A stretch of DNA of 64,000 bases from Desulfobulbaceae bacterium (GCA_011391865.1 JAABPV010000044.1:1-64000); one strand, 5' to 3'; positions 2,229 to 63,717 are shown, counted from the stretch's first letter. The notes: a model not told the origin generated them from the letters alone. Numbers and translations: made by a program.

Positions 2229-2248
2229 CATGCTTGCGTCAGCCGCGT

Positions 2249-3686: not shown

Positions 3687-3724
3687 TCCTTCTCTCCTTG
3701 GACATGTTAAAAATTGAAATACGT

Positions 3725-3743: not shown

Positions 3744-4021
3744 CGGCAAACAGGGTTCAGGGCGGCGCGGACTTGAACAATGGAGCTAATCTTATCGATA
3801 TAAAAGAGTATTTTCATTTAGCTGCCGCATGTTGCGCTGACACGTCTGAACGTTAGAATAATGGAGTCAAGCGAAAAATTAAAGTCAAGAGTAAAATGTG
3901 GGCAGAAACGTTCTCTTCTGCTTGATCTTTTCCGCAGCAGTGTTAAGATGATGGAAACTTTGCCGGGTCTCTTCTCCGGGCAAAGGCTGACTTTTCAACT
4001 ATATGCAAAAAGGAGACGGCA

Positions 4022-4779: not shown

Positions 4780-4942
4780 CTGGAGCGTGATAACTTGACA
4801 TTATACTTAACAGATATCATCTTGTTAAGATTGACAATATCAGCCCAAGTTCTGTCTCGTTTTATCCTGCTTCAGCTATAGGTCACAACTGAGGTTACCA
4901 GTATGTATTTTCGTTGCTCCGGCTGCGGCCCCGGCATGAGGA

Positions 4943-6172: not shown

Positions 6173-6239
6173 GTTTCTTACCTCGTTGCGCTTGAAATGA
6201 AAATAAGGATGAAGCCAGACAGGAGGCGTTTTCCGCACC

Positions 6240-6724
6240 TTTGCTGCTGCTTCTGAAATGCAATGATATTGCTGTCAGCAACGCCGCATCAGTCCTTGGT
6301 TGGAAGAAAATGCGTCAGGAGACTGTTTCAACTTCCATGAAACAGTTCTTGCGCCAAGGACAGCCGTGAGCAGTGCAAGGCGAATGCTCCGCAGCTTTGA
6401 CAGCCATTATCAAGTATCGATAATTATATTCTTGCATGATACCCCTATGTCGATGGAATTGTAAAATAAATAAAATAAATCGCAAGAATCAGCGTTATAT
6501 GTAATTAGCTGAAAATACATAATTTAACACGCGCTCAACATGAGCATATCAATAGGAATTCAGCTTCGCCAAGGTCGGTCGTGAGATGCCTATCACGACC
6601 GATTCGCATTGAGTATCCTTTTCCCGCCTCTTGGCTTTTCTCAAGCTGATCCCACGTAATTAATTTGCTTGCCAACAGGGGTATTTTGATCAACGCCCAA
6701 TCCCAAACCGCTATATGCAGAACT
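6240..6724. other. Intergenic region with a 10-bp inverted repeat
   Basis: No gene is seen in these 480 bases; the middle (6410-6540) is clearly AT-rich. A perfect inverted repeat TCGGTCGTGA / TCACGACCGA occupies 6575-6584 and 6593-6602 with an 8-base loop. There is no adjacent T-run, so it could be a protein-binding site or a factor-dependent terminator for the operon ending at 6725. Confidence 0.4.
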
Positions 6725-8056: not shown

Positions 8057-8772
8057 TCATCCAGCAGCTCCGCCACCCGCTGCTGAAGCAGCGCGGCCAG
8101 CTCCTGCTTGTCCTTTGCCTTGAAGCCTGCTGTCGGCATGGGTGTGCCGATGCGCAGCAGCACCTCACCGCCGCGCGAGAGTAGCTTCCCTTTGGGCAGT
8201 GCCTGATGGGTGCCGTTGAAACCCACCGGCACCAGCTCCACTCCGGCCTTGATTGCCAGCATCACCGCGCCGGTCTTGAACGGCTGAAGATGCCCGTCCG
8301 CGCTGCGCGTGCCTTCGGGAAAGAGAATGACCGAGCAGCCTTCAGCGATGCGCTGGGCCGCGTCGTTGAGACTCTGCACCGCCTCCCTGCCGTGCGAGCG
8401 GTCAATGGGGATATAGTCCACCGCCTTCATGCCCGCGCCGAAGACAGGTATCTTGAACAGCTCCTTCTTGGCGATCCAGCGGTAGTCGTGCCTGATATAG
8501 CCGGAAAAAGCCATGATGTCAGCCATGCTGCAATGGTTGCCGATGAAGATGTACGGCTTGGCCGGATCTAAATCCTCCCCTCCCTCCACCCGCACACGGA
8601 TGTTGGCGATCCAGCAGAGCAGCCGTCCCCAAGCACGGGGAAACTGCTGCGCCTTGGCTTTGGATTGGCGGAACCAGCGCACATCGGCCATCACGCTGAG
8701 GCAGACAGCAATAGTCAGGGGCGGGATAGTGAGCAGGGCCAGCAGGCCGCGCAGGAATTGTATTGGCGACAT
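8035..8772 (-). CDS. plsC: 1-acyl-sn-glycerol-3-phosphate acyltransferase (PlsC family)
   Basis: 245 residues. It has the PlsC/LPLAT signature: the HX4D catalytic motif NHCSMAD (His80, Asp85) and the FPEGTRS glycerol-3-phosphate-binding motif at 151-157, with an N-terminal membrane anchor (LLALLTIPPLTIAVCLSVMA). The enzyme adds the second acyl chain to lysophosphatidate at the cytoplasmic face of the inner membrane, producing phosphatidate. The length is typical for the family. It lies between an SDR gene (9-base gap) and the LivM-like permease (overlapping), so the three are co-transcribed. No strong ribosome site is visible, which fits translational coupling. Confidence 0.9.
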   Translation of the reverse strand: MSPIQFLRGLLALLTIPPLTIAVCLSVMADVRWFRQSKAKAQQFPRAWGRLLCWIANIRVRVEGGEDLDPAKPYIFIGNHCSMADIMAFSGYIRHDYRWIAKKELFKIPVFGAGMKAVDYIPIDRSHGREAVQSLNDAAQRIAEGCSVILFPEGTRSADGHLQPFKTGAVMLAIKAGVELVPVGFNGTHQALPKGKLLSRGGEVLLRIGTPMPTAGFKAKDKQELAALLQQRVAELLDECHLPLT

Positions 8773-8781
8773 ACGTCAGAT

Positions 8782-9984
8782 TTAGGAGTCAGCCTCGCCG
8801 TCATCGGCAGGCTCGAAAACCGCGTCGGCCAGCTCGTCTGTTTGCAGCAGGGCGGGCCACGGCGTGGTGGAGTCGGCATGAACGCTGCCAAGCAGCGCGT
8901 CAGGATGCCGCAGGAAATCGTTGGCCAGCTCATTGCCGATGAACTGGTCGCGGAAACGGGTGATCAGGTTGAGATGCGCCCAGCGGGTCAGATAGTAAAT
9001 GACTAACCTTGGCAGGCGGGTGTATATGTCTTCCTCCGGGGCCGGATCAATAAAGCTGGAGCGGCGCAGCTTCTCAACGGAAAGGGTCTGCGAAAGATAG
9101 ACATTCTTGAGGAACATGTACTCTGGCGGCAGGCGGGCGGTGATGCCGAACCCGTTCAGCAGACCCGCTATCCGCTCCAAGAAGAACTTGCCCGCGATGA
9201 CCACAGGATACGGCACATAAATCTCACGCGGCAGCTTGACCTCCAAGTACGCCCGTATGGTCAGGATCAGGTCATCCAAGGGCACTGGCTCCGGGTCGGC
9301 AAAATGATAGGTCTGGCCGGAGAACTCCTCGCGGTGCAGCAGGGCATGGTGGACGAAATAAGGAATCTTGGCAGCACTGGTGTAGGAGTGCTGCACACCC
9401 CGCTTAGTGAAGAGACAAGGCACGGCCTCATCAGCAATAGCAAAGAGCAGGCGGTGGAAGCCCTGAATCTTGTGGTCGTGCTCGCCATAGACAATGGACA
9501 CCCGGATGACGGTGCAGTCCAGCCCCTGATGCCGTATCATGTGCTCCAGGGTCTTCTCGGCCATCAGCTTGGATTTGGCGTAGTTGCTCAGGCCGGGTGT
9601 CAATGGCAGCTGATCCTCCTCAGCCAAGTTCTCGCCGTGCGGCAGGACAGCTGCGGAGCTGAAATGAATATAGGGAATCTTCAGGGCACAACATGCCCGC
9701 GCCAGATTAACGCAGCCAAGATAGTTGACCTCAAAGGCTAACTGCGCGTCTGAATCGAGCGAGGCCATGGCCGCGTTAATGACAAAGTCCGGCCTGGCCC
9801 TCTTGAGATACACAATGATGTCCTGCGCATTGCGCACAGAGAGCTTCTTTGAGCTGGGCGCACGGATGTCGAAATCATCCGGGGCCTGCGTCTTGAAATA
9901 ATAGGCAAGGGTGCCGCCGATCAGGCCGGAGCCGCCGATCAGCACACCGAGACTGCGTTTCTTTTGTGAGAGCGCCTGAGCCAT
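8782..9984 (-). CDS. Extended SDR: NAD-dependent epimerase/dehydratase-like protein
   Basis: 400 residues. A Rossmann fold begins with GGSGLIGG at 17-24 and the active-site pair YAKSK (Tyr135, Lys139) is present, with HFSSAAVLP as the preceding Ser-containing strand. The last ~130 residues are an added C-terminal region of unknown role. The family converts nucleotide sugars, sterol-like or fatty alcohol substrates; the arrangement with an acyltransferase hints at a lipid or polyketide-lipid modification, but that is inference. It is the first gene of the operon and its promoter must lie in or near the palindromic array at 10.2 kb. Confidence 0.8.
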   Translation of the reverse strand: MAQALSQKKRSLGVLIGGSGLIGGTLAYYFKTQAPDDFDIRAPSSKKLSVRNAQDIIVYLKRARPDFVINAAMASLDSDAQLAFEVNYLGCVNLARACCALKIPYIHFSSAAVLPHGENLAEEDQLPLTPGLSNYAKSKLMAEKTLEHMIRHQGLDCTVIRVSIVYGEHDHKIQGFHRLLFAIADEAVPCLFTKRGVQHSYTSAAKIPYFVHHALLHREEFSGQTYHFADPEPVPLDDLILTIRAYLEVKLPREIYVPYPVVIAGKFFLERIAGLLNGFGITARLPPEYMFLKNVYLSQTLSVEKLRRSSFIDPAPEEDIYTRLPRLVIYYLTRWAHLNLITRFRDQFIGNELANDFLRHPDALLGSVHADSTTPWPALLQTDELADAVFEPADDGEADS

Positions 9985-13939: not shown

Positions 13940-16900
13940 TCACTTTTCCTGCTGCTTCTCCGCCCACTCCAGCACTTGGTCGAATTTGCTTTTGCCGGGC
14001 GGAGGGGGTGCAAGCAGTGCGCCGAAGCGTTCCATATCCGCCGGGGTGCGTTCCTTATGCACAATCTCAAGGCCCTGCACGTCTAATTGCCAGAGGAATT
14101 TCACGGCTTGGATGAAGGTGTGGTAGAGGGGAGTGGGTTTGGTGCCATTCAGAAAGAGGGTGTATGGGCGCACATCCCAGAGCCGGACGGTGCCATCCAA
14201 AGAAGCAGATGCAAGGAATCTGCCATCAGGACTGAATGCAACACTGTGGACTTCTTTTTCATGTCCCTCGTAAACATCCCACAACTCCGCCTTACGGTTA
14301 GCAATATTACAAAGATAGACGATGCCATGTCCTGTGCCTGAAGCGAGAAGTCTTCCATCAGGACTGAAAGCAACGCTATAGACTCTATCAAGCCCATGCT
14401 CAATGACATCCAGCTCCTTACCGCTGATAACATCCCAAAGCCTGACGGTGCCATCTCTTGAAGGAGAGGCAAGAGTCTTATCATCAGGGCTGAAGGCTGC
14501 CTCAAAAACTGCCGCTCCATGACCTTTAAGAACAGCCAGTTCCTTGCTATTGGCAACATCCCAGAGCCGCAAGTTGCCATCCTCCCTCCCAAAATCATCA
14601 AATAACATGTCGTTACCTGAAGAGGATGCTAAAAGTTTGCCGTCATGACTAAAAGCTATACTATTTACCTCAGCTTCATGCCCTTTAAAGACAGCCTGCT
14701 CTTGGCCATTGGTAATATTCAAGAGCCGCAGCGTATTATCATCAAAAGCTGAAATAATATTTTTGCGATCAGGGCTGAAGGCAACAGGACACTCATGATG
14801 CCCTTTGAAAACAGTCAGTTCTTTCCCGTTGGCAGCATCCCAGAGGATGATCTTCTCAGGTGAGACAGAGAGAATTCTCTTGCCGTCAGAACTGAAAGCT
14901 ACGCTACAGATAGAATCTGTATCACCTTTGAGAGTGGTCAACTCGTTACCTCTCTCCACATCCCAGATATGTATCGTTTGGGAGGTGTTATACGAGTCAT
15001 CCATTCTAAAAGAAGTTGAAATAAGTTTTTTCCCGTCTGGACTGAAGGCCACATTTTCGACCATATCTTCATGTTTAAAAACTGTCAGTTCTTTAGTGCT
15101 GGCAATATCCCAAATTTGCACTGATGAAGATGAAGTGTAAGTAAGTTTCCTTCCGTCTGGGCTGAAGGCAAGTTCTGCCGTGCCGTATAAATTTAACTGG
15201 CCAGAATTAGCAGATGTAATTGCGCTATTGGAAACAGCGGTAACGACAATCTGCTGCTCTTTTTTGTCAATATTCCATAGACGCACGATTCCATTCCAAG
15301 AAGACACCGAGGCAATCCGCTTGCCATCAGGGGAAAAGGCGATAGCATGTACAGGAAATCCAGATTCATGTTTTATTGAGGCCAATTCCTTGCCGTTGCT
15401 TGTGTCATACAGGTAAGTGTTCTCGCTAAAAATTGAAGTAGATGTTATCATCTTACTGTCATAGCTAAAGGCAGTTTTTTGTCCTTTAAGGATAATATTA
15501 TTTTTGCTCTTGTCGATATCTATCAATATTGCTGTGTTATCATCTCGAGAAAATGATGATACCATTTTTTTGCCGTCAGGGCTGAATGTCCCAATATTTG
15601 GAAACACAGCCAGTTCCTTGCCGTTGGCAATATTCCAGAGCTGCGCTATATTGTCATATGATAAAGACAATAACCTTTTCCCCTCAGATGTAAATGACAT
15701 TTCAATTACATCTGTCTTAAATTCTTGCAATAAAGCCAACTCCTTGCCGCTATTGATGTCAACTATCTTGATGCTTTTGTCATTTGAAGCATAGGCTATC
15801 CTCTTGCTATCATGGCTAAAGATAACCATGTATCCTTTGAAAGAAATTAGCTCTTTATTGTTGGTAATATCCCAAAGACGAATGATCCTTCCATTGAAAT
15901 TTTTGTCGTTGGCGACATAGGCAAGAATTTTGCTGTCAGGACTAAAAACGCTCCCATCTCCTTTGAAAACAGCCAACTCTCTACCGCTGGGCAAATCCAG
16001 CAATTTGATGGTTCCATCTCCTGAATATAAAATAAATTTTTCCCCGTTTGGACTAAAGATGCCGTAACTGTTGATGCCAGTTTGTTCCATCAATCCGGCA
16101 TAGAATATTTCAGGAGCAAAAAGTTTCCCTGCTGAACTCAACTCTAAAGCGGATTTTTCCTGTTTAATCTCTCGGTTAAATGCTGCGGATGTAAAAAGAA
16201 TGGCCTTTTTATGTCCTTCTACATATCCTTCTGATATATAGCCGCTTTCTTCGGCAGCCTTCAGCGCGGTCAGGGCTTTCTCTTCAAACGCTTTGGCAAG
16301 ATTGTAATTGGCCGCAAGAGTCTGTTGTTCCGCCTTATTTTTCTCTTTTTTTGCCTCAACAGTCTTCTGCTCGGCCACAACCTTCTGCCGTTCCGCATCC
16401 TTCCACAGCAGAAAAAACGTTGCCGCCACTGCCATCACAGCCAGCAGCCCGACCGAAACAGCAACAATCTTTCTCTGCCGCTGCTTCTCCCGCGCCTTCT
16501 CGCTCTCCCGGATAAACTGCCGCTCTTCCTCGCTCAAGTAGTTCTCATGACTTGCCCGCCACTTCAAGGCCTGATCCAGCGGCAGGCCGCGCAGCAGCTC
16601 GCTGCTTTCCTGCCACTGCTTCAGCAGCATCTTCAGCTTCTCACGCCAAACCAAGAACTCCCGCTCCTTGTCCACCCACTGGCGCAGCTTCTTCCAGCAG
16701 CGAATCAGAGCCTCGTGAACAACCTCAACCGTCTCCTCCTTGCCGTCCGCGCCGCCCGAAGTCACCAGCAGCCGCCGGTCGGCAAGCTGCCTGATCAAAC
16801 CGCGCTGCTCCTCCTGAAAGTCGGCAAGAGCGGCCACCTGCCGGGTGTCCTCTGTTCCCTGTCCGGGCCGCACCAGCTTGAGAAAAATCTGCCTGACCTG

Positions 16901-18427
16901 CTGCTCGTCAAAGTCCTTGATCACCGCATCGGCATGAACAGCAAGAGCCTGCTGCACCCCGCCCAGCTCCTTGTAGGCTTCGTGCGTTATCTGCCTGCGC
17001 TGCTGCTTTTCCCAGAGCTGCGATAGGCAGAACTCCAGCAGCGGCAAACTGCCCGGCTCGTTGCCCACATCTTGGACGATCAGCTCGGCCAAGCCCGGCT
17101 CAAAGCGGACATGAAGCAGCAGCGCAGGCCGCTCCACCGCCTCCCGCAGCCCCTGCCCGCTCATCGGCGGAATCATGATCGGCCTGTGTTTGTTCATCGC
17201 CTCGGCCAGCAGGTCATAGGCAATCGCCGCGCCGAGGAAATCTGCCCGCATGGTGACAAGAACGGCAAAGCCCTCGCTCTGCCCGGCGGCCAGCAGTCCT
17301 TCAAGGTAGCGGCGAACCAGTTCCTTGTCCGGGTTCAGCGTAAACAGCTCCTCGAACTGGTCAACAATCAGCAGCAGCCTTGCCCCGCTGTTTTTGCTGA
17401 GAATAGGCCGGAGCAGGTCGGTCAGACTCAGCTTTCCGGCCAACAGCTCGGCAGCACAGTCCTTAGCCTTTCTGATCCGCTCCAGTTCGTCTTCGTACAG
17501 AAAGGGAATCAGACAGGCGGCCAGCTCATCGAATGGCTGGCTTTTGGGACGGCAGGCGGCTGTCAGCCAGCCGCCTTGTTTGGACAAGATCGGCAGCAGG
17601 CCAGCGAACACCAGCGAGGACTTGCCGCTGCCGCTCGCGCCGATGACCGCAGTGAAAGGCTGCCTGTCCGCAGCCTGCCGGAGCAAATCCGCCGCCTCGT
17701 TTCTGCCGAAATAGAAGCGGGCATCCTGTTCCCTGAACGCCTTCAGTCCCCGGTAGGGATTAGCGGCGCGGTTGAACTCATCAATGGCGGGCAGGGCCTC
17801 CAGCAGGCTGAGGGCGGGAATCATGTAGGCAACCGTGGCTTCCCGCCTGCTCAACATGCTCACGGTCATGCCGCAAACTGCGTTCTCTTCCACCGCCCAG
17901 ACTGCCGTGCCGCTGAAGCCCGCCTCAACAAGATTACTGTCCTGATGATGGATTTCCACCCAGCCCTTGGCCGTGCGGCCTTGCAGTCTGCCGTTGGCAT
18001 AGGTGCCGTCATCAACGCCTGCGGGAAAGCCGCACATCCTGACGGGGTCATCAAGAAAAGAGCCTTTGTGGTCAAGCACCTCGATGGGTGCTGGTTGCGC
18101 TCCGGCAGGGAGTATTGCGTCCGTTGGCAGCTCCAGCACGGCGATGTCTTCCAGCTCGCCGACCGCAGAATCCGCCCGTACCGGAAACCAGCGCAGAATC
18201 TTCGCCTGAAGCAGCGGTTGGCCGGGCAGCAAGGGGAAGTCGAGAAAAACGGGGAGATCAGGCTGTTCAGCCGCATTCTGTTTTCTCCCCAGCGCGTCAT
18301 TGACGACATGGGCGCAGGTCAGCAAATGGCGCGGCGTGACAAGAAAGCCCGCGCCAACTGGCCTGCGCGGGCTTTGATCATCAATCAGAATGCGGATAAG
18401 GGCGGACTCCAAGGACGGGGCAGACAT
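13940..18427 (-). CDS. Trypsin-like protease / STAND ATPase / WD40 protein
   Basis: 1495 residues in four parts. (1) Trypsin-like protease, residues 1-200, with His40 (TCAHVV), Asp94 (LEDIAVLEL) and Ser172 (GFSGTAVW): a complete triad and no signal peptide. (2) nSTAND-type ATPase, about 225-640, with Walker A GASGSGKS at 263-270 and Walker B LLLIVDQFEE at 351-360, then a winged-helix-like region. (3) A membrane segment at about 654-675 and a charged coiled coil to about 720. (4) About 15 WD40 repeats from residue 786, enough for two seven-blade propellers, and a C-terminal tail. In STAND systems the repeats sense a trigger, the ATPase oligomerises and the effector, here a protease, is released; defence or programmed death is the usual reading. 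A Trypco1 gene lies directly upstream. Base composition changes sharply near 16.1-16.3 kb, where the WD40 part begins. Confidence 0.9.
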   Translation of the reverse strand: MSAPSLESALIRILIDDQSPRRPVGAGFLVTPRHLLTCAHVVNDALGRKQNAAEQPDLPVFLDFPLLPGQPLLQAKILRWFPVRADSAVGELEDIAVLELPTDAILPAGAQPAPIEVLDHKGSFLDDPVRMCGFPAGVDDGTYANGRLQGRTAKGWVEIHHQDSNLVEAGFSGTAVWAVEENAVCGMTVSMLSRREATVAYMIPALSLLEALPAIDEFNRAANPYRGLKAFREQDARFYFGRNEAADLLRQAADRQPFTAVIGASGSGKSSLVFAGLLPILSKQGGWLTAACRPKSQPFDELAACLIPFLYEDELERIRKAKDCAAELLAGKLSLTDLLRPILSKNSGARLLLIVDQFEELFTLNPDKELVRRYLEGLLAAGQSEGFAVLVTMRADFLGAAIAYDLLAEAMNKHRPIMIPPMSGQGLREAVERPALLLHVRFEPGLAELIVQDVGNEPGSLPLLEFCLSQLWEKQQRRQITHEAYKELGGVQQALAVHADAVIKDFDEQQVRQIFLKLVRPGQGTEDTRQVAALADFQEEQRGLIRQLADRRLLVTSGGADGKEETVEVVHEALIRCWKKLRQWVDKEREFLVWREKLKMLLKQWQESSELLRGLPLDQALKWRASHENYLSEEERQFIRESEKAREKQRQRKIVAVSVGLLAVMAVAATFFLLWKDAERQKVVAEQKTVEAKKEKNKAEQQTLAANYNLAKAFEEKALTALKAAEESGYISEGYVEGHKKAILFTSAAFNREIKQEKSALELSSAGKLFAPEIFYAGLMEQTGINSYGIFSPNGEKFILYSGDGTIKLLDLPSGRELAVFKGDGSVFSPDSKILAYVANDKNFNGRIIRLWDITNNKELISFKGYMVIFSHDSKRIAYASNDKSIKIVDINSGKELALLQEFKTDVIEMSFTSEGKRLLSLSYDNIAQLWNIANGKELAVFPNIGTFSPDGKKMVSSFSRDDNTAILIDIDKSKNNIILKGQKTAFSYDSKMITSTSIFSENTYLYDTSNGKELASIKHESGFPVHAIAFSPDGKRIASVSSWNGIVRLWNIDKKEQQIVVTAVSNSAITSANSGQLNLYGTAELAFSPDGRKLTYTSSSSVQIWDIASTKELTVFKHEDMVENVAFSPDGKKLISTSFRMDDSYNTSQTIHIWDVERGNELTTLKGDTDSICSVAFSSDGKRILSVSPEKIILWDAANGKELTVFKGHHECPVAFSPDRKNIISAFDDNTLRLLNITNGQEQAVFKGHEAEVNSIAFSHDGKLLASSSGNDMLFDDFGREDGNLRLWDVANSKELAVLKGHGAAVFEAAFSPDDKTLASPSRDGTVRLWDVISGKELDVIEHGLDRVYSVAFSPDGRLLASGTGHGIVYLCNIANRKAELWDVYEGHEKEVHSVAFSPDGRFLASASLDGTVRLWDVRPYTLFLNGTKPTPLYHTFIQAVKFLWQLDVQGLEIVHKERTPADMERFGALLAPPPPGKSKFDQVLEWAEKQQEK
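13948..13998. repeat. Direct repeat copy B: 3' end of the STAND gene
   Basis: This is the intact copy of the 51-bp repeat, inside the last codons of the trypsin-STAND-WD40 gene (SKFDQVLEWAEKQQ, then EK and stop). With copy A at 13208-13258 it brackets the AbrB/VapC pair, as expected if the pair entered by duplication of, or recombination at, the gene end. Confidence 0.9.
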
Positions 18428-32453: not shown

Positions 32454-35213
32454 ATGACCATGCAACATGCTGAATCAGTCCGCCGCGCTTTGATCGTCAC
32501 AGCACTGCCGGTGGAATACGCCGCCGTGCGCGGGCATCTGAAAGACCTTGCTGAAAAGGAGCATCCGCAAGGCGATATCTACGAGCAAGGCATCTTTCAG
32601 GCCGACGGCCAGCAATGGCAGGTCGGCATTGTCGAAATGGGCATGGGCAATCCGAACGCCGCGCAAAAGAGCGAGCGGGCGATTGCCCATTTCCAGCCTG
32701 AAGCCGTACTTTTTGTCGGCATTGCGGGCGGGATCAAGGATGCGAAGATTGCTGACGTGGTGGTGGCGAGCAAGGTCTATGGCTATCATTTCGGCAAGGC
32801 TGCCGAGGACTTCAAAACACGACCTGAAGTTGGCCTGCCCGGCCACCGTCTTCTCGAACGCGCCCGCGCCGAAGCCCGCAAACCGGACTGGCTGACGCGG
32901 CTACCGGAAATACCGCTGCCTGCGCCGAAGGTCTTTCTCGGCGCGATTGCCGCAGGTGAGCAGGTGGTGACTTCCACCCAGTCGGTGAGTTATCAGCTCA
33001 TCCGCAATTCTTATAACGACGCGCTGGCCTTGGAAATGGAAAGCTACGGCTTTTTCAAAGCGGTGCAGGCTCATTCCGGGCTGGAGGCTTTGGCGGTGCG
33101 CGGCATTTCAGACTTGCTGGAAGGCAAATCTGAAGCTGACGGCGGCGGTTCGCAGGAACGCGCCTCGCAACATGCCGCCGCCTTTGCTTTTGAAGTGCTG
33201 GCCAAGCTGAAGCTGCCGGAAAAGAATGTCCGAGTTGAAGTTCGCGAAATCGTGCGCGAGGTTCCTGCCCCGTCCGCGCCGCTCCTCTCCAATCTCCCTC
33301 ATCAGCCCTTCTTCTTTGGCCGGACAAAGGAGCTGGCCAGCATTGCTGAAGCCATTTCACCGGAAGCCCGCACGTGGGGCGCGTTGATTGACGGTCCCGG
33401 CGGCATCGGCAAGACCGCGCTGGCCATCAAAGCTGGACACGATGCGCCTGCCGCACATTTTGAGCGCAAGATTTTCCTTTCCGCCAAGGTGCGCGAGCTG
33501 ACCCCGACGGGCGAGCAGTCGTTGGATGACTTCATTTCCCGCGATTACCAAACCTTGCTGGCCGATTTAGCCCGTGAGCTGGACGCGGACAATGCAGCGC
33601 AGGCCGCGCCGGAAGAGCGTGTCAAAGCAGTGCATCATGCCTTGACCGGCAAGCGCATCCTGCTGGTGATTGACAACGTGGAGACCTTCCCGGAAACCGA
33701 GCGCGTCCGGCTGTATCAGTTTCTCTCCCGCCTGCCTGAGGGCTGCAAAGCGATTGTCACCAGCCGCCGCCGCACGGACATTGATGCCCGCGTCATCCGC
33801 CTTGACCGCTTGGAACGGCAGGATGCCTTTGCCCTGCTGGATGAGCTGGCCAAGGACAACCCGCATCTGAGCAAGGCCACGGCGCAGGAGCGCGGCGATT
33901 TGTACGAAATCACCGGCGGCAATCCGCTCATCATCCGCTGGACAGTCGGCCAGCTGGGGCGCACGGGCAGCCGCTGCCGCACAGTTGCCGAAGCCTGCGC
34001 CTTTCTGGAAGCCGCGCCCAAGGGCAATGACCCGCTCGAATACATTTTCGGCGACCTTGTGGACACCTTCACCGAGAGCGAAACCGCTGTGCTGGCCGCG
34101 CTGGCCCTGTTCAGCCATCCTGCGCCGGTGGAGCAGATTGCGGCTGTGGCCGGAATTGCCGCCCAATCCGCCCGCACCGCGCTGGAAGATCTGAACAGCC
34201 GCGCCCTGCTGGTGGCGGACGAGGAAGGGGAAAAGTTCCTCCTGCCCAAGCTGGCCGCAACCTTTATCCGCCGCAAACGGCCTGAGCATGTGGCTGTCAG
34301 CGGCGACCGCCTGACGGAACGTGCTTTTGCCTTGGCCTTGGAGAACGGCTATCAACAATATGAGCGTTTTCCGGTGCTGGAAGCGGAATGGCCGCTGCTT
34401 GCTGCTGCCATTTCACTCTTTGTTCAAGGCGAGAATGAGCGGTTGCAGCGTGTATGCGATGCGCTGGATACGTTCTTCAACTTTTCTGGCCGCTGGGATG
34501 AGCAGTTCTCCCTATGTCAGCAGGCTGAAGAAAGGGCACTATCCGCTGGAGACAGCAAGAATGCAGGCTGGCGGGCGTATAATGCAGGATTTATCTATTA
34601 CTGGCGCAGACAAACGGCCAACGTCTTGGAATGTGCCGCCCGCTGTGCCAAGCATTGGGAGAAAGCTGGGGCGCAGGAGCTGGCCTATGCTATCCGGCTG
34701 CGTGGCATTGGGCATACATTGGAAAAAAACTACCCGGCAGCGGTTGCTGCGTATCAGGAATCGTTTGCTCTTTGGCGAGCCATTGCGCCGGAGAGCGAGG
34801 ATGTGGCTATTGCGTTGAATGACTTGGCTGATGTAGAGCAGTTACAGGGTAATTTTTCCGCAGCTGAACGTGATTACAAAGAAGCCTTGCGGATTGCGAA
34901 GAAGACAAAGCAGCATGAAGGAGTTGCTAGCTACACCGGTAACTTGGCCGAGCTTGCCCTTGACCGGAAAGACTGGCCGCAAGCCGAAAAACTCGCCCGG
35001 CAGGCGTTAGAACTGACGGAAAAGATCGGACGACAGGAGATGATTGGCTTCGTTTGCCGCGTCATCGCTAAAGCACTTGCCCGTCAAGGCCAGGCCGCAG
35101 AGGGCTTGGACTACGCCCGCCGCTCTGTGGACATCTTCAGCCGCCTGCGCCAGCCGAATGAGCTGGAAAGAGCGCAGGCCGCCCTGCGGGAATGCGGCGG
35201 CGGGAATTCATAA
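32454..35213 (+). CDS. Nucleoside phosphorylase-like / STAND ATPase / TPR protein
   Basis: 919 residues, GAGAGGTG site before the ATG. Residues 10-250 are a purine/uridine phosphorylase-superfamily domain (MTAN-like): ALIVTALPVEYAAV, VGIAGG at 88-93, EMES (Glu196) and RGISD with the catalytic Asp220. Residues 285-560 form an NB-ARC-like STAND ATPase with Walker A GPGGIGKT (314-321), Walker B RILLVIDNVE (401-410) and the TSRRR sensor-like motif. The last ~250 residues are TPR repeats (FSAAERDYKEALRIAKKTK, WPQAEKLARQALELTEKIG). The same order, phosphorylase effector then STAND then repeats, is found in bacterial and fungal NLR-like proteins. Predicted role: when the TPR part senses a trigger, the effector depletes a nucleotide or nucleoside. 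The first gene of the pair may just share its transcript. Confidence 0.88.
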   Translation: MTMQHAESVRRALIVTALPVEYAAVRGHLKDLAEKEHPQGDIYEQGIFQADGQQWQVGIVEMGMGNPNAAQKSERAIAHFQPEAVLFVGIAGGIKDAKIADVVVASKVYGYHFGKAAEDFKTRPEVGLPGHRLLERARAEARKPDWLTRLPEIPLPAPKVFLGAIAAGEQVVTSTQSVSYQLIRNSYNDALALEMESYGFFKAVQAHSGLEALAVRGISDLLEGKSEADGGGSQERASQHAAAFAFEVLAKLKLPEKNVRVEVREIVREVPAPSAPLLSNLPHQPFFFGRTKELASIAEAISPEARTWGALIDGPGGIGKTALAIKAGHDAPAAHFERKIFLSAKVRELTPTGEQSLDDFISRDYQTLLADLARELDADNAAQAAPEERVKAVHHALTGKRILLVIDNVETFPETERVRLYQFLSRLPEGCKAIVTSRRRTDIDARVIRLDRLERQDAFALLDELAKDNPHLSKATAQERGDLYEITGGNPLIIRWTVGQLGRTGSRCRTVAEACAFLEAAPKGNDPLEYIFGDLVDTFTESETAVLAALALFSHPAPVEQIAAVAGIAAQSARTALEDLNSRALLVADEEGEKFLLPKLAATFIRRKRPEHVAVSGDRLTERAFALALENGYQQYERFPVLEAEWPLLAAAISLFVQGENERLQRVCDALDTFFNFSGRWDEQFSLCQQAEERALSAGDSKNAGWRAYNAGFIYYWRRQTANVLECAARCAKHWEKAGAQELAYAIRLRGIGHTLEKNYPAAVAAYQESFALWRAIAPESEDVAIALNDLADVEQLQGNFSAAERDYKEALRIAKKTKQHEGVASYTGNLAELALDRKDWPQAEKLARQALELTEKIGRQEMIGFVCRVIAKALARQGQAAEGLDYARRSVDIFSRLRQPNELERAQAALRECGGGNS

Positions 35214-56616: not shown

Positions 56617-56642
56617 GATGTCTCACGTCTCTTCTGTATCTG

Positions 56643-56685
56643 TAAAAAACAGCGAAGCCGGAAACGCAGGCTGCGTTTCCGGCTT
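56643..56685 (-). terminator. Terminator after the first Met/Gln-rich gene
   Basis: Minus strand: 14-bp stem of AAGCCGGAAACGCA and its complement with a 3-base loop, then CGCTG and TTTTTT. It insulates cbiK from the Met-rich gene upstream. It shares AAGCCGGA with the stems after the other four paralogues. Confidence 0.75.
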
Positions 56686-56713
56686 TGTCCGGCAGCTCAG
56701 ACTGCTGCCAGTC

Positions 56714-57649
56714 TTACCATTGTTGCTGCTGCATTCCGGGGAATCCGCCGCCACCGTTCATGCCGGGACCGCCGGGAATTCCACCTCCGCCCCACATTCC
56801 GCCGTTAGGCAGCCCCGGCATCATTCCTCCGCTGCCGTTGCCGCCGTAATACGGAGACTGGCCAAACGCAGGCGCAGGCAGCGGCACATTGGGGAAACCA
56901 TTGTTCATGATGCCAGACTGCATGAACTGCATCTGCATCTGCTTGATCGGCGCGCTGACTGTGGGAATCATGGCCGGCATCATCGCGCTCTGGAAGCGGA
57001 TGGGGAAATTCCACGGCTGAATCTGGCTGATCATGCTCTGCACCGCGCCGGGCTGAATCATGGGCCGGAACGTGCTCTGGCCCATGCGGGAAATATCAGA
57101 AATCCGCGAGGTCATGATTGAGTCGCGCACAGAGTTTCTGATCTGGTTGATCGGCGATGACCCGCTTCCCATGTTCTGCTGGAGCTGGTAGATGTTCTGA
57201 CCGGCCATGTTCATCGCCCCGTTGTAGCGCTGATCCTGCGGCAGCCCCTGCATGCCGCCCCAGACCACCTGCCGCAAGTCCAGCATCGGCGAGGTTCCGC
57301 CGCCGCCCTGCGGCTGCATGCCGCCGACTCCGTAGGTGTTGGCTATTGCGGCGGGATTTATGCCCATGACATTGCCGGGAGACATCATCGGCTGCTGCTG
57401 ATAGTATCCTCCTCCATAAACACTCCCGCCCGGCATCGTGCCGCTGCCCGGATACACCATTCCAGACGCGCCAGGCTCAGGGTTGTATCCGGGATTCATG
57501 CCCGGCAGGCCAGGCATGCTGTCAGAAGAGTTGACCATGCCCACTCCGCCAGGCATAGGCCCGCCGCCCATTTGAGCCTGAGCTGAACCAACCGCGCAGG
57601 CCAAGCAGGCGAAGGTCAGGCCAAATGCGATTTTTTTTGCCGTTTTCAT
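56714..57649 (-). CDS. Met/Gln/Gly-rich secreted protein, paralogue 1
   Basis: 311 residues from the ATG at 57649 (GAGGAG site). Signal peptide ending GSAQA-QMGG. A Gly/Pro/Met-rich low-complexity first half (GGGPMPGGVG, MSPGNVMGINP) is followed by the family core: QIRNSVRDSIMTSRISDIS, then IQPGAVQSMISQIQPWNFPI, RFQSAMMPAMIPTVSAPIKQ and MQMQFMQSGIMNNGFPNVP. The tail is again Gly/Pro/Met-rich with a Gln end (FPGMQQQQW). There is no cysteine after the signal. I know no family for it. It is the largest of five paralogues in a row, and with paralogue 2 shares the QIR-VRD-IM block. Periplasmic or extracellular; function unknown. Confidence 0.8.
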   Translation of the reverse strand: MKTAKKIAFGLTFACLACAVGSAQAQMGGGPMPGGVGMVNSSDSMPGLPGMNPGYNPEPGASGMVYPGSGTMPGGSVYGGGYYQQQPMMSPGNVMGINPAAIANTYGVGGMQPQGGGGTSPMLDLRQVVWGGMQGLPQDQRYNGAMNMAGQNIYQLQQNMGSGSSPINQIRNSVRDSIMTSRISDISRMGQSTFRPMIQPGAVQSMISQIQPWNFPIRFQSAMMPAMIPTVSAPIKQMQMQFMQSGIMNNGFPNVPLPAPAFGQSPYYGGNGSGGMMPGLPNGGMWGGGGIPGGPGMNGGGGFPGMQQQQW

Positions 57650-57805
57650 GCTGTTTTCTCCTCGCTTGATGAACAAATTGTTTTTCCCCTTTTTTGGCGG
57701 AGCCAGCCCCTGTCACATCTACAGGGTAGCAATTCCGGCGCGGTTTGTAAAATTTTTTCTGCCCGCCGTAAAGGAAAATCGTATTTTTTGAACTCTCTGA
57801 GCGCA

Positions 57806-57838
57806 AAAGCCGGAGATGCTCACCGCATCTCCGGCTTT
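57806..57838 (-). terminator. Stem-loop after paralogue 2
   Basis: AAAGCCGGAGATGC / GCATCTCCGGCTTT, 14-bp perfect stem with a TCACC loop. The T-run on the minus strand is short (TTT), so termination may be weaker than for the others. Confidence 0.6.
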
Positions 57839-57876
57839 GATTGCGCAGCAGCCTGCTTTCCGGCTGACGCGAAATT

Positions 57877-58638
57877 TTAGTTGCCCATCAACATCTGCGG
57901 ATTGACGAAGTTAGGATCATTCACTCCGTCCTGCATGAACTGCATCTGCTGCTGCTTGACTTGATCGCTCACTCCGCTTGCGCCAGGCAGGCCGGGAATG
58001 TTCGGGAAGCTGTTGTCGCCGATGCCTTCCTGCATGTAGCCGATTTGCGATCCCTTAACCTGATTGCTGACTTGGGTGACAATCTTCGGCATCATCTGGC
58101 TCTTGAAGCGGTTCGGCAGCTCCCACGGCTTGATGCTGCCGATGATGGTCTGCACCATCTGCGGCTGAATGTTGCCTCTGTAGAGATTCGGAGCCATGCC
58201 GGAGATGTTCCGGTAGCGGTCCATCATGATGGTGTCGCGCACTTTAGCCCGGATCTGGTTGGCGGCGGCGGATCCCTGCTGCATGATGGCCAGATTCTGC
58301 TGGGTCATCTGCTGCGCCAGAGAGTCGCGCTGCTGCTGAGGCATGTTCTGAATCGCTTGTTCAATCATATTGCGGATGTCCAGCGTGGGAGCGGGCGCAG
58401 TCTGAGCAGCCTGATCCGCATCCGGTGCCCAGAGGCCGTCCATGGAAACGTTGCTCGTGACCTGCTGATTGATGTTGGACACCATGCCGCTGGCGATGCT
58501 GCTGGCGATGCTGTTGGCCATGCCTGCCATCGGGTTGCTGCTGCTGGCTGCTGGCGCACCCATCTGCGCCCACGCAGAACCTGCGGCAGCGGCGACGAGT
58601 CCAAGTGCGATGGTGAATTTCAGTGCTGTCTTTTTCAT
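57877..58638 (-). CDS. Met/Gln-rich secreted protein, paralogue 2
   Basis: 253 residues from the ATG at 58638 (GAGGAGGAGG site). Signal peptide KFTIALGLVAAAAGSAWA-Q. Core blocks: LDIRNMIEQAIQNMPQQQRD, NQIRAKVRDTIMMDRYRNIS, NIQPQMVQTIIGSIKPWELP, NRFKSQMMPKIVTQVSNQVK and QIGYMQEGIGDNSFPNIPG, and then a second copy of the last motif (QQQMQFMQDGVNDPNF). No cysteines. It lacks the long Gly-rich parts of paralogue 1. Predicted helical, Met/Gln-rich, exported; no known family. Confidence 0.8.
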   Translation of the reverse strand: MKKTALKFTIALGLVAAAAGSAWAQMGAPAASSSNPMAGMANSIASSIASGMVSNINQQVTSNVSMDGLWAPDADQAAQTAPAPTLDIRNMIEQAIQNMPQQQRDSLAQQMTQQNLAIMQQGSAAANQIRAKVRDTIMMDRYRNISGMAPNLYRGNIQPQMVQTIIGSIKPWELPNRFKSQMMPKIVTQVSNQVKGSQIGYMQEGIGDNSFPNIPGLPGASGVSDQVKQQQMQFMQDGVNDPNFVNPQMLMGN

Positions 58639-58883
58639 TTTCCTCCTCCTCTTGTTTGAAAAAACCATCCGCACCATGCGGACGGATGCCTCTCAAAATC
58701 CGGTTCAGCCCCGTTTTTTTTAATGAAGAAGCAAATTCTTCAATGCATCCTCTTTGTAGCACGTTTCGCAAAATTTGTACAGTTTTTTTTACTGTCTTCC
58801 GCGAAAAAATATCCGTGCAGCGGCGGCTGCCCGCAAGGATACCAGAATAATGAGAAGTTCCAAAGCGTTTTCTGCGTGGCTAT

Positions 58884-58923
58884 GAAAAAAGAAAGCCGGA
58901 ACAGCTCAGGGCTGATCCGGCTT
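58884..58923 (-). terminator. Terminator after paralogue 3
   Basis: Minus strand: AAGCCGGA paired with TCCGGCTT, with an inner AGC/GCT pair, followed by TCTTTTTTC. Confidence 0.75.
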
Positions 58924-58947
58924 GGCCGGCTGCGGAGCAGGCGCAGC

Positions 58948-59418
58948 CTATGGAAAAGTCAGCTCCTGTTGTTTGCCTGACTCCTCGGTTCTGCCGGGCA
59001 AATTGGGAAAAGCGGGATCGCTGATACCTTCCTGCATCTGCTGGAGCTGCATCTGCTTGATATTCGCGCTGACCTGCGAAACCATCATCGGCATCATCGC
59101 GGTCTTGAACCGGTCAGGAAACTCCCAAGGCCGCATGTTGCCGATGATGACTTGCACCATCTGCGGCTGAATGTTCTGCCGGTAGGCGGTTGAAGCGTAC
59201 TGGTACATGTTGTTCATCATCTTGCCCGGCAGCTCATCTTTGAGCGGCATGGCCTCATACTGCTTGCGCATGGTCTCCCGCTGCATCTGCGTGATTATGT
59301 CGTCAACGGCCTGAAGCGTCTCCGGGTCAAAATCAAGCGCGCGCGCAGGTGCCGCCGTCATGATTAGCCCTGCGGCACTCAGCAGCAGACCGGCGCGGAC
59401 TGCTCTCAGCATGTTCAT
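58948..59418 (-). CDS. Met/Gln-rich secreted protein, paralogue 3 (A and B modules)
   Basis: 156 residues. Signal peptide ending APARA-LDFD. The N-terminal module A (LDFDPETLQAVDDIITQMQR, then MPLKDELPGKMMNNMYQYAS) matches the two small paralogues; the C-terminal module B (NIQPQMVQVIIGNMRPWEFP, DRFKTAMMPMMVSQVSANIK, MQEGISDPAFPNLPG) matches the two large ones. It therefore links the whole family. No cysteine. The G-rich site GGGGGCAG precedes the ATG. Confidence 0.8.
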   Translation of the reverse strand: MNMLRAVRAGLLLSAAGLIMTAAPARALDFDPETLQAVDDIITQMQRETMRKQYEAMPLKDELPGKMMNNMYQYASTAYRQNIQPQMVQVIIGNMRPWEFPDRFKTAMMPMMVSQVSANIKQMQLQQMQEGISDPAFPNLPGRTEESGKQQELTFP

Positions 59419-59526
59419 TTTCTGCCCCCTTTTCTCTTTTTAAAAAATAATTTCAGCAAATAATATACTACGGTAGCACAGAGCGGGCCAAGAAGTCAAG
59501 CCCCGGCGTGACAACCATGTCCGCGA

Positions 59527-59562
59527 ACAAAGAAGCCGGAGCGGCTGACAGCCCGCTCCGGC
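59527..59562 (-). terminator. Stem-loop terminator after paralogue 4
   Basis: GCCGGAGCGG / CCGCTCCGGC stem (59535-59544, 59553-59562), then TTCTTTGTT on the minus strand. Confidence 0.65.
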
Positions 59563-59608
59563 CTTGTTTCTATCGCAACTGCCTTGCATCGGCAGGTCAG
59601 AACTGCAC

Positions 59609-59944
59609 TTAAGGCAGAGGAATCGGCCTCTCAACCATCCGCTGCATCAGCACGCCTCTGGTGGCGTTCATGTTCGCTTCCATCATCACCGGCTGAATCT
59701 GATTCATCAGGATGGTCTTGGATGCGAACTCCTGCATCATTTTGCCGCGCATCTGGTTCTGGAGCGGAGCTTGCGGATACAGCTCCTGCATCGTCCGCTG
59801 CTGCATCTTGACAATCATTTCATTGATCATCGCTGTGATTTCAGGATCAATTGTCAAAGCTGACGCATTGTGAGCAGTCATTACAGAGCCAAAAGCAGCT
59901 ATTCCAAGAACAAATTTAATGGCGATTCTTTTCATGGACTTCAT
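59609..59944 (-). CDS. Met/Gln-rich small secreted protein, paralogue 4 (module A)
   Basis: 111 residues, AGGAGGAG site. Signal peptide ending HNASA-LTID. Module A only: LTIDPEITAMINEMIVKMQQ, MRGKMMQEFASKTILMNQIQ and PVMMEANM. By my count 16 of its 111 residues are Met, an extreme content, and it has no cysteine. Function unknown. Confidence 0.8.
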   Translation of the reverse strand: MKSMKRIAIKFVLGIAAFGSVMTAHNASALTIDPEITAMINEMIVKMQQRTMQELYPQAPLQNQMRGKMMQEFASKTILMNQIQPVMMEANMNATRGVLMQRMVERPIPLP

Positions 59945-60223
59945 TGCAGTCTCCTCCTTTTAATCAGTTCTGCATGTTTTATTTGGTCATATAGACTCTT
60001 GGCCTCTCCCCGTTTCTCATCGCTGCCAAGAACCATTCCCGTATAAGAACAGGATAGCATGTGGCATGTGACAATGTCAAGGCACTGAGGCCGATTTTTT
60101 CAAACAAGGAAACTGCGCTGGTGCAGGAGCATGTCTGCGCAGATGCGTCCAGAAAAATAGAGTACGGAAGAAAGCGGTGAATGGCGCAAGGAAGGAGCGG
60201 ACAGAACTGCTGCCGCTGATGAA

Positions 60224-60259
60224 AGAAAGCCGGAGAATTTGACGTATCTCCGGCTTTCT
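60224..60259 (-). terminator. Stem-loop terminator after paralogue 5
   Basis: AGAAAGCCGGAGA / TCTCCGGCTTTCT, 13 bp with a 10-base loop, then TTCATC on the minus strand. The remaining intergenic DNA 59945-60297 shows no gene. Confidence 0.65.
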
Positions 60260-60297
60260 GATCCGCTTCTCAGGAACGAAGCGGAGTGACCGCAGGC

Positions 60298-60627
60298 TTA
60301 TCTGGCCGTCTGCATGATCTGCATCTGTTGCGGCTTGATCTGGTTGCGCATCTTCTCCATCATCACCGGCTGAATGACGTTCTGCATGAAGTTCTGCGGG
60401 GTGCGCTCATTCATCATCTTGGTCATCATCTGCGGCTTGAGCAGCATGGCGGAGTAGTTCTTCTGGATCATCTCCTGCTGCATCTGAACCAAAGCCTGAT
60501 CAACGGTGTTCAGGGTGGCAGGGTCGATGCTCAGAGTTGTGCCCTTCTGCGCGAACGCGGAGCCAGCGGCCATGATCAGACCGGCGGCAGCCATGCTCAG
60601 TGCAAATTTTACAGTCACACCTTTCAT
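60298..60627 (-). CDS. Met/Gln-rich small secreted protein, paralogue 5 (module A)
   Basis: 109 residues, GAGGAGGAGG site. Signal peptide ending GSAFA-QKGT. Module A: LSIDPATLNTVDQALVQMQQ, LLKPQMMTKMMNERTPQNFM, NVIQPVMMEKMRNQIKPQQM. Also 16 Met by my count, no cysteine. Closest in layout to paralogue 4. First in order of the series on the minus strand. Confidence 0.8.
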   Translation of the reverse strand: MKGVTVKFALSMAAAGLIMAAGSAFAQKGTTLSIDPATLNTVDQALVQMQQEMIQKNYSAMLLKPQMMTKMMNERTPQNFMQNVIQPVMMEKMRNQIKPQQMQIMQTAR

Positions 60628-60900: not shown

Positions 60901-63717
60901 TCACATTCCTTGGAAATTCGGCCTGCGCCCCTGCGAGCCGCCCACGGTTCCGGCGGATTCGCCCAGCTCTTTGTAGAGCATCATGTCCCGCCCGCCGTTG
61001 CCGCTCACCGTGTTGCCGTCCATGAAGATCTTGGCCAGTGCCTCGTGCGGATACCCGGCGACAATGCCGCCGCTGCGGCTCGCGTTCGGATCCGCGCTGT
61101 TGCCGGAAACCATGTTGCCTTGCACGAAGAGGTCGCTCCGGTTGATGGAGGAGACAAATATGCCGGTTCTGCGGTTGCCGCGCACAGTGTTGCCGCGCAC
61201 GGTCAGACGGCTGCCTGGAGCGGCCAGCACGGCTGCCGCGTCGCCGGGATTGACGGCGATGCCGACAGTGTTGTCGCGCACCTCGTTGCCCTCAATCGTC
61301 GGATAAGCCTCCTCGCGGATGCCTATGCCAATGTTGTTGCCGTAAATGAGGTTACTTTTGACAAACGGCGTGGCCAAGCCGCGCACACCGACACCGGTCA
61401 CTTTGTTGTTGTAGATATTATTGTTGTAGATGTGGCCTGACGCGCCGAGGCCGTTGCTCACGCCGATGGCGTTGTCGTAAATCTGATTGTTGTGGATCTT
61501 CGCCTTCTCGGTGAAGTTCTTCTGGCCGTGGATGCCCACGCCGACGTGCTTGTTGCCGACAATGTGGTTGTCGACGATCTCCGGGGCGCAGTTGAGAATT
61601 TGAATGCCGTGGCCGAACTGGCCGCCGCCGCCGCCGATGACGGTGAAACCTTGAATGCGGCCCGACGAGTTGTCCAAATAGCAGATAAAAACCGCTGATT
61701 CATCAGTGTTCCTGCCGCCACCGTCGATCACCGGCCTGCCCACGCCGATCAGGTTCACCGCCTTGTCGACGATCAGATTCTCTTTGTACACGCCAGAGCT
61801 GACGATGATGTCCTCGCCGTCCTCCGCTGTGTCGATCGCTGTCTGAATGGTGGGATATTCCTCCGGCACCAGCCGTTTGCCAGGCACGCGGCTCTGCTTG
61901 GTGCAGACATAGCCGGTGTCCGGCGCGCTGGTCTTCCTGCCGTTGCTCACCGTCAGGCGCAGGGTGTAGCAGCCTGGCGCGTCCGGAGTCAGGACTGGCC
62001 GCTCGGCTTTGGGATCGGACAGCACGGCCTGGCTGGCCGACGGCCTGCTGGCCAGCGTCCAGAGGTACGTCAGCTCGCCGCCGTTCTGCTTGTTCTTGTC
62101 ATAAGCGGAGAGCGTGACCGGCTTGCCGAGATCCGCCGCGCTGTCCTGCTTGGTGATTTTGGCGGTCGGCGGCTTGTCAGGATCAGCGTTCAAAGTCATG
62201 GTGACCGGCGCGCCGCGCAAGCCCCAGCGGTCAGAAACAGCGAGCTGGACAGCGTACTGGCCACCCTTGTCCGCTGTGAGCTGGCAGGTGCCGTCCTTCT
62301 GCGGCTGAAGCGCGGCCATGCTCTGCGTCGGCCTGCTGACCAGCCGCCATTCATAGCGGAGCGCGTCGCCGTCAGGATCGATGCTGATTTTGCCGTTCAG
62401 CGTCACTTGGTCTCCGGCATAGACCTGCTCGTGCAGCGGCTCTATCCGCGCCTGCGGCGGCTGGTTCGGTTGCTTGGCTGCCGCCACGGTGTCCGGGCCG
62501 CCGTAGGCCCCCAGATCGTTGCTGTCCTCTCCCAAAGAAGGTCCGAAATTTTTGTCGTTATACTGCGGTGAAGGCTCGCCTGCGTCAATGGCGGGCGAGC
62601 CGGGCCGCAGGCGGTAGTCGTGCTGGGCTGGATTGACGAAGAGCGGGTCGGCGAGGATGTTCTTGCTCTTCTCCAGCGTGGCCTGATCCTCGTAGCCGCC
62701 GAACTGAAGGCGGATGTACCAGAGGTAATCTGGGTAAAAACCGTCCGCCCGGTTGTTGGCGTAGAGCAGATTATAGGTGTAGCCGCCGCCGAAGGACTTG
62801 ATGCCTGCCTCGCCGTTGCCCGCCACGATGTTGTTTTTGATCTCCGGCTGGACAGTAGAGACCTTGCCGCCCTCTGGCGCGCTTTTGTTGGCGGCCTCAG
62901 CCACGGAAATGCCCGCCAAGCCGTTGCTGGCGATGGTGTTGTTGGTGACGCGCAGGGCGGTCTGGCCGCAACGCACCCCGGCCTCGCCGTTGCTGTAGAT
63001 CAGGTTGTTGGCCACCCGGCCTGCGGCGAGGGCGACATTCACCCCGGCTTTTTTGTTATTGTGAATGGCGTTGCCGACAATCTCCACCTGGCCCTGCTTG
63101 CCTTCGCCGACATTAATGCCTGCCCAGAGGTTGCGGGTGATCAGATTGCCTTGAATTGTCGCTTGGCAGCCCTCCTCCATGAAAATTCCCGCCTTGCCGT
63201 TGGCGGCGAGAATGCTGCCGGTGACGGTGAGGCGGCAGCTCCGGGCGTAGATGCCTGCGGCGACATTGCTGGTGATGACGCAGCCTCTGACCGTGAAGGC
63301 GGCTCCGTCGCAGTACACGCCCGGCCCGATGTCCAAATCCTGCGGCAGGATCATGGGCGGTCTGCCGCCGGTGATGACAAAGCCGTCAATCACCGCATTG
63401 TCCGCGCCGAAGACCACATAGCCGCCACGCGCACTGCCGTCAATGACAGTGCTGTGCTTAGTCGGGTCGCGCTCCTGAAAGTTCTGGTCCCAGCCGCCCT
63501 CCAAGGTTACGCCGGGCTGAAACATAATGTTGTCGGAATAAGTTCCTGCGGCCACGCGCACGGTGTCGCCGGGCGCAGCGGCTCCCATCGCTTGGCTTAT
63601 AGCCTGATATTGACTGGGAACAAGCAGAATTTTGGCGGCGGCGGGCGAGCAGTAACAGGCCGCGAGCAGCAGCGCAAACAGAACGCGCAGGTAAACGCGG
63701 ACAGATAATATATGCAT
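60901..63717 (-). CDS. Exported double right-handed beta-helix protein with PKD-like domains
   Basis: 938 residues from the ATG at 63717; an ATG at 63729 and a TTG at 63813 are possible alternatives and none has a strong ribosome site. The hydrophobic start RVYLRVLFALLLAACYCSPA has an LAAC sequence that fits a lipobox, so it may be a lipoprotein; otherwise a cut after SPAAA is possible. A first beta-helix (about 30-400) opens LVPSQYQAISQAMGAAAPGD and has repeated NxI-xxN-xxAGI turns. Two PKD/Ig-like domains follow (ISIDPDGDALRYEWRLVSRP; LTYLWTLASRPSASQAVLSD). A second beta-helix (about 610-900) opens with the similar LVPEEYPTIQTAIDTAEDGE. Such folds bind polysaccharides or act as surface proteins. 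It lies next to the Met-rich cluster. Confidence 0.88.
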   Translation of the reverse strand: MHILSVRVYLRVLFALLLAACYCSPAAAKILLVPSQYQAISQAMGAAAPGDTVRVAAGTYSDNIMFQPGVTLEGGWDQNFQERDPTKHSTVIDGSARGGYVVFGADNAVIDGFVITGGRPPMILPQDLDIGPGVYCDGAAFTVRGCVITSNVAAGIYARSCRLTVTGSILAANGKAGIFMEEGCQATIQGNLITRNLWAGINVGEGKQGQVEIVGNAIHNNKKAGVNVALAAGRVANNLIYSNGEAGVRCGQTALRVTNNTIASNGLAGISVAEAANKSAPEGGKVSTVQPEIKNNIVAGNGEAGIKSFGGGYTYNLLYANNRADGFYPDYLWYIRLQFGGYEDQATLEKSKNILADPLFVNPAQHDYRLRPGSPAIDAGEPSPQYNDKNFGPSLGEDSNDLGAYGGPDTVAAAKQPNQPPQARIEPLHEQVYAGDQVTLNGKISIDPDGDALRYEWRLVSRPTQSMAALQPQKDGTCQLTADKGGQYAVQLAVSDRWGLRGAPVTMTLNADPDKPPTAKITKQDSAADLGKPVTLSAYDKNKQNGGELTYLWTLASRPSASQAVLSDPKAERPVLTPDAPGCYTLRLTVSNGRKTSAPDTGYVCTKQSRVPGKRLVPEEYPTIQTAIDTAEDGEDIIVSSGVYKENLIVDKAVNLIGVGRPVIDGGGRNTDESAVFICYLDNSSGRIQGFTVIGGGGGQFGHGIQILNCAPEIVDNHIVGNKHVGVGIHGQKNFTEKAKIHNNQIYDNAIGVSNGLGASGHIYNNNIYNNKVTGVGVRGLATPFVKSNLIYGNNIGIGIREEAYPTIEGNEVRDNTVGIAVNPGDAAAVLAAPGSRLTVRGNTVRGNRRTGIFVSSINRSDLFVQGNMVSGNSADPNASRSGGIVAGYPHEALAKIFMDGNTVSGNGGRDMMLYKELGESAGTVGGSQGRRPNFQGM

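Follow-up and report, generated by a model that had tools for sequence, protein, structure and literature searches.

Methionine- and glutamine-rich exported proteins restricted to two genera of cable bacteria: a new family with a possible role in the filament envelope

Introduction

What purpose is served by five consecutive genes for small, methionine (Met)- and glutamine (Gln)-rich secreted proteins in a member of the Desulfobulbaceae? The question arises from a stretch of 64,000 nucleotides (GCA_011391865.1, JAABPV010000044.1:1-64000), here called the window. An original prediction, made from the DNA alone, had described the five genes (P1 to P5) as assembled from two shuffled modules, A and B, and had proposed that their products bind a soft metal or form envelope or fibre material. 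A scan of contigs returned three loci only, from Candidatus (Ca.) Electronema aureum GS, Ca. Electronema sp. KV and 'Desulfobulbus sp. F5', all within the cable-bacteria clade. Because these matches fall in Electronema, the source of the window (genome G000, 2.8 Mb, 95% complete) is a cable bacterium of that genus. Cable bacteria are centimetre-long, electricity-conducting bacteria. We note that F5 (JAGIXO01, L007), which has the same cluster, very likely belongs to Electronema despite its name. P1–P5 appear to constitute a new sequence family, restricted among the genomes searched to two genera of cable bacteria, and we infer its function below from sequence.

A selected gene family confined to cable bacteria

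The five open reading frames (ORFs) lie one after another on the minus strand, as had been described:

56714-57649, minus strand: P1, 311 residues; signal peptide, Gly/Met/Gln/Pro low-complexity N-terminal part and tail, B-type domain, aromatic C-terminal residue
57877-58638, minus strand: P2, 253 residues; signal peptide, low-complexity front, B-type domain
58948-59418, minus strand: P3, 156 residues; signal peptide, A and B
59609-59944, minus strand: P4, 111 residues; signal peptide, A only
60298-60627, minus strand: P5, 109 residues; signal peptide, A only; has the closest Electrothrix relatives of the five

A purine-rich ribosome-binding site precedes each ORF. The precursors P1 to P5 contain 10.6, 8.3, 10.9, 14.4 and 14.7% Met and 10.0, 12.6, 10.9, 9.0 and 13.8% Gln; the earlier estimate of 14–15% Met for the two smallest, P4 and P5, was accurate. 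The remaining ORFs of the window mostly have 1–5% Met, and thus the 8–15% seen in P1–P5 is no chance composition. Each N-terminus runs from a short basic segment through a hydrophobic one to an AxA-type site. Signal peptides of P1–P5 and their relatives were judged by inspection; signal-like N-termini, which would be required of a conductive-fibre protein, are present in every member. The mature proteins contain neither cysteine nor histidine. The description 'without cysteine' therefore fits the mature forms but not the precursor of P1, which has two cysteines, both inside the signal peptide. Between orthologues the ratio of non-synonymous to synonymous substitution rates (dN/dS) is 0.08–0.38 in the comparisons whose silent sites are near saturation but have not reached it. 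P1–P5 are therefore selected proteins, encoded by real genes under purifying selection.

The five-gene cluster is common to the window, GS and KV. Within the family Desulfobulbaceae, the P3 profile matched all five Electronema and five Electrothrix genomes. Lack of conservation in related genomes had been named in advance as grounds for abandoning the proposal; the A-type profile instead found the family in all five Electronema genomes and in six of the eight from Electrothrix (11 of 13 cable genomes), with a single non-cable match (E 0.0995) that we take as chance. Across the order (258 genomes), two of 69 genera have matches, Electronema and a second genus (g12), which is Electrothrix. A phylum-wide sample of 395 genomes gave none besides the window's own, with the A profile and with the P1–P3 profile alike.

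The prediction that no described family has these motifs has held. P1–P5 match nothing in Pfam at E ≤ 1, and a Pfam scan of 15 A-type members produced scattered chance matches only. NCBIfam scores fall far below curated cut-offs, and a sequence search of the PDB gave no significant match (best E 0.64–0.8). The papers searched contain nothing on Met-rich proteins in cable bacteria. One candidate relative of module B was DUF2059 (PF09832), whose members are exported, helical and carry Met/Gln-rich stretches; it was rejected as PF09832 matches no protein in G000 or in G054–G057.

Domain architecture and methionine use

Profile–profile comparison with reversed-sequence controls located module A in P3, P4 and P5 (E 1e-10 to 1e-14) and module B in P1, P2 and P3 (E 1e-19 to 1e-30), as proposed. 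The notion of two separate shuffled modules needs amending: the match between P3 and P2 begins in the middle of A and continues through B (P3 mature residues 27–118), thus the second half of A, ending in IQPxM, is common to all five proteins. The plainest description would be a single domain family, complete in P3, with the C-terminal part missing in P4, P5 and a sixth paralogue, P6; P1 and P2 would be the B-type domain with low-complexity fronts added, plus a tail in P1. This tail is repetitive in the KV orthologue of P1, where a 21-bp unit that encodes GYGGGMG occurs in 7.4 copies. The C-termini of P1 orthologues end in W or Y.

P6 is an A-type copy that the window's genome carries on a different contig (G000:C87:66042-66365; L046 9042-9365). 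The A domain unites it, and a two-repeat Electrothrix protein (ET5), with P3, P4 and P5. Two further exported, Met-rich Electrothrix proteins are ET4, related to P5 (E 1e-6), and the P2-like ET3 (E 2e-5), whose gene adjoins A-type genes in two genomes. In one Electrothrix locus (L040 of G060, 374-9646) a pair made up of ET3 and an A-type gene follows what appear, by eye, to be genes for carbon monoxide dehydrogenase/acetyl-CoA synthase, the nickel enzyme of the Wood–Ljungdahl pathway. A Met-rich, cysteine-free, exported pair, ET1 and ET2, is present in all eight Electrothrix genomes; the two are related to one another (E 3e-13), and ET1 is confined to that genus. ET1 proteins (L125–L131, L084) have conserved C-termini of the form ...APPPF/PPMF. 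We also observed exported proteins of 10–15% Met and 20–25% Gln at G000:C9 (L086 7458-8537) and G054:C1 (L085 7732-8451), with repeats like MPDVSGIQQQMQEQMMRQMTQQMQ; the former additionally has an A-like tail.

Met is more conserved than residues overall in P5 (91% vs 72%), P4 (80% vs 61%) and P3 (71% vs 61%), and not above average in P1 (64% vs 62%). The corresponding values for the products of two neighbouring genes, described below, are 46% vs 69% (β-helix protein) and 80% vs 76% (CbiK). Where Met changes, it is mostly to I, L or V. Met appears to be favoured at hydrophobic positions in P3–P5, which would suit packing no less than ligation. Low-confidence models suggest that these A-type proteins are probably helical.

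A possible role in the filament envelope

Since the proteins are exported, found in cable bacteria only, selected, present in several copies and without known relatives, they are best read as components of the special envelope of these organisms. We put this forward tentatively: P1–P5 may be structural or scaffold proteins, sent out by the Sec route, of the filament envelope. Expression bears on the proposal, as every gene is followed by a terminator-like hairpin:

60222-60268, minus strand: hairpin after P5, z −5.3
59520-59575, minus strand: hairpin after P4
58885-58935, minus strand: hairpin after P3
57795-57850, minus strand: hairpin after P2, z −6.4
56640-56695, minus strand: hairpin after P1, before cbiK

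All five have a GCCGGA...UCCGGC-type stem, most have a U-rich tail, and z ranges from −2.8 to −6.4; in GS, similar sites follow P5, P3, P2 and P1. One hairpin per gene suggests five separately transcribed genes, thus products in unequal, possibly large amounts could be made. The conserved A/B domain, probably helical, would mediate assembly through flexible, Met-rich hydrophobic contacts, and the Gly/Met/Gln/Tyr low-complexity parts of P1 and P2 would provide matrix-like material. The periplasmic fibre/ridge system or the cell–cell junction would be the likely site, because all cable bacteria share these structures and their relatives are without them. The occurrence in cable bacteria only, the low-complexity tail of P1 and the independent terminators strengthen an envelope or fibre reading.

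The fibre protein of cable bacteria has yet to be identified (PMC11976967; PMC11247825). A comparison of the two genera in 2025 sought only recognisable nickel/iron proteins and, by its own statement, would have missed a new family (PMC11976967), and an older proteome of Ca. E. aureum represented about 10% of the genome (PMC13293266). Newer filament proteomes (MSV000099163 for Electrothrix communis RB; MSV000099164 and MSV000099166 for Electronema aureum GS, whole and fractionated) and a transcriptome (PRJNA575166) are public (PMC13293266). Digestion with trypsin in silico showed that most usable P1–P5 peptides contain Met and that P1 yields pieces of 100–110 residues; peptides of 7–30 residues give only 18–35% coverage. 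Default proteome searches could therefore miss P1, and the family as a whole may have been overlooked. Sulphur co-localises with the fibres in GS at an S:Ni ratio of about 8–19 (PMC11976967), which is more than a nickel bis-dithiolene, with its four sulphurs, would account for; a Met-rich protein could contribute to the excess, as could ordinary protein. It is conceivable that the conductive fibre is built or held by P1–P5 together with their counterparts in Electrothrix, as a Met-rich rope whose thioether-rich, low-complexity matrix would host the nickel cofactor.

Several observations weigh against these proposals, which are drawn from genes and sequence. Infrared spectroscopy coupled to atomic force microscopy (AFM-IR) found the protein of the fibre sheath to be mainly disordered and not α-helical (PMC8238962), which speaks against helical P3–P5 as the bulk of the fibre and fits P1 and P2 better. 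In the older Ca. E. aureum proteome PilA, and none of these proteins, was reported as the most highly expressed (PMC10580974). Two Electrothrix genomes, G061 (93% complete) and G062 (69%), gave no A-type match, and the hhalign probability of ET1/ET2 against P1–P5, at most 21%, is too low to demonstrate kinship. The AlphaFold models are of low confidence (pLDDT, the predicted local distance difference test, 46 for P3 and 54 for P5) and were not used, and the helices were not clearly amphipathic. In view of the AFM-IR disorder and the two Electrothrix genomes, we consider it improbable that the family forms the fibre itself, and a general envelope role plausible, if short of an even chance. Were the fibre reading true, the family of genes that underlies biological conduction over centimetres would already lie in public genomes, without annotation and difficult to detect by tryptic proteomics. 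Export, confinement to cable bacteria among the genomes searched, conservation and multiple copies are what genomes can first reveal of a cable-specific envelope component, and this family has all four.

Genomic neighbourhood and rival explanations

Two genes flank the cluster:

60901-63717, minus strand: β-helix/PKD protein, 938 residues, exported, parallel β-helix; upstream of P5
55711-56616, minus strand: CbiK-type chelatase; downstream of P1, followed in relatives by a FecCD permease, an ATPase and (Electrothrix) a binding protein

GS and KV share the order β-helix/PKD–P5–P4–P3–P2–P1–cbiK–FecCD permease–ATPase, and the window agrees up to cbiK. The β-helix/PKD protein is present in 13/13 cable genomes, its gene lying beside one of P5 type in Electronema and, within Electrothrix, in G060. 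Relatives 41–46% identical occur in a few other genera, with no Met-rich neighbour in the five non-cable loci read. Its NosD match, considered as a sign of copper insertion, was set aside, being far below the curated cut-off and reflecting the general β-helix fold. Elsewhere the window encodes an exported protein of 603 residues with collagen triple-helix repeats (356-2167, plus strand) and two proteins of the STAND/NLR-like kind often tied to defence, an nSTAND1–WD40 protein of 1495 residues (13940-18427, minus strand) and a PNP–NB-ARC–TPR protein of 919 residues (32454-35213, plus strand).

Every one of the eight Electrothrix genomes has ET1/ET2 next to a cbiK–permease–ATPase–binding protein locus; in six of them the pair lies upstream of cbiK, in the other two at the opposite end of the locus. 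Met-rich exported genes beside cbiK are thus a trait common to both cable genera, and four non-cable relatives (L132–L135, the last a short contig) have cbiK without such neighbours. This arrangement, the Met conservation in P3–P5 and the need of cable bacteria for nickel in the periplasm (PMC11247825) all favour a role in soft-metal or metal–tetrapyrrole handling, in which the thioethers would bind or pass on periplasmic nickel, cobalt or copper together with CbiK and the FecCD-type ABC transporter. The absence of His and Cys from the mature proteins and the replacement of Met mainly by I, L or V argue the other way, and CbiK, found in 14/14 genera of the family, is therefore no cable adaptation. 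In L009, L125 and L126 a cobalamin riboswitch separates cbiK from the Met-rich genes, and L130 has one ahead of cbiK, so that cbiK is under B12 control of its own; none was found at cbiK in GS or the window. With the riboswitch in four of the six cable loci scanned, co-function with metal uptake is unproven. A function shared with CbiK is weakened further by the terminator-like hairpin after P1 and by the family-wide occurrence of CbiK; as riboswitch and strong hairpin separate the two gene sets, their position may simply be inherited. Of the two functions originally proposed, envelope or fibre material leads, and metal binding we judge unlikely. We note that CbiK of the window and of GS (L008 12872-13807) is without the signal peptide and riboswitch seen in the KV and Electrothrix copies, and that second cobalamin riboswitches occur near cbiK in non-cable Desulfobulbaceae (L134 8443-8644; L133 3337-3599).

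P6 raises another possibility. In three Electronema genomes (also L049 11984-12310 and L050 4849-5184) it adjoins genes for periplasmic nitrate reductase and multihaem cytochromes, a locus already described (PMC10030654). Small and, by low-confidence modelling, probably helical, the A-type proteins might be Spy/CpxP-like periplasmic chaperones or adaptors. They would keep hold of cytochromes or enzymes and could, for instance, dock periplasmic reductases to the electron network. There is neither a Pfam match nor structural support for this, and P1, with its low complexity, is unlike a chaperone; the explanation seems to us an improbable one. Lineage-specific surface, sheath or interaction proteins not tied to conduction would likewise be exported, repetitive, lineage-restricted and multi-copy, and the paralogue sets do differ between the two genera; surface proteins engaged in an arms race would less typically be under strong purifying selection or keep the order of their cluster, and we hold this reading, too, to be unlikely. 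Least convincing is a role as sacrificial antioxidants or redox sensors, in which surface Met oxidised in the oxic zone would protect proteins or switch assembly: high Met content and the low-complexity P1 recall Met-rich low-complexity domains, whose phase separation Met residues reportedly regulate according to a review, but no candidate for a periplasmic Met sulfoxide reductase of the MsrP type (PF00174) turned up in the 13 cable genomes, MsrA and MsrB not having been searched for.

Our preferred envelope reading, and its rivals, come with a short list of named candidate genes that can be tested at once in existing public proteomes and transcriptomes.

Comparison with known systems

Spy/CpxP periplasmic chaperones resemble P1–P5 in being small, exported, probably helical and rich in Gln and Met, but P1–P5 have no Pfam match even at E 1. 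Met-rich periplasmic copper and silver proteins of the SilE/PcoE and CopC kind are also small and exported; P1–P5 differ in having no His, no Pfam match and no adjoining copper locus. Like Met-rich prion-like or low-complexity domains such as that of ataxin-2/Pbp1, P1–P5 are Met/Gln-rich, with low-complexity parts that could self-associate, whereas they are exported, bacterial and of no demonstrated sequence kinship, with a conserved domain that has invariant residues in P3–P5. Against the nickel-containing conductive periplasmic fibres, P1–P5, known from their genes, differ in that the helical members depart from the reported disordered amide signal; they are alike in being cable-specific, exported, present in both genera, rich in sulphur and, in P1 and P2, partly of low complexity.

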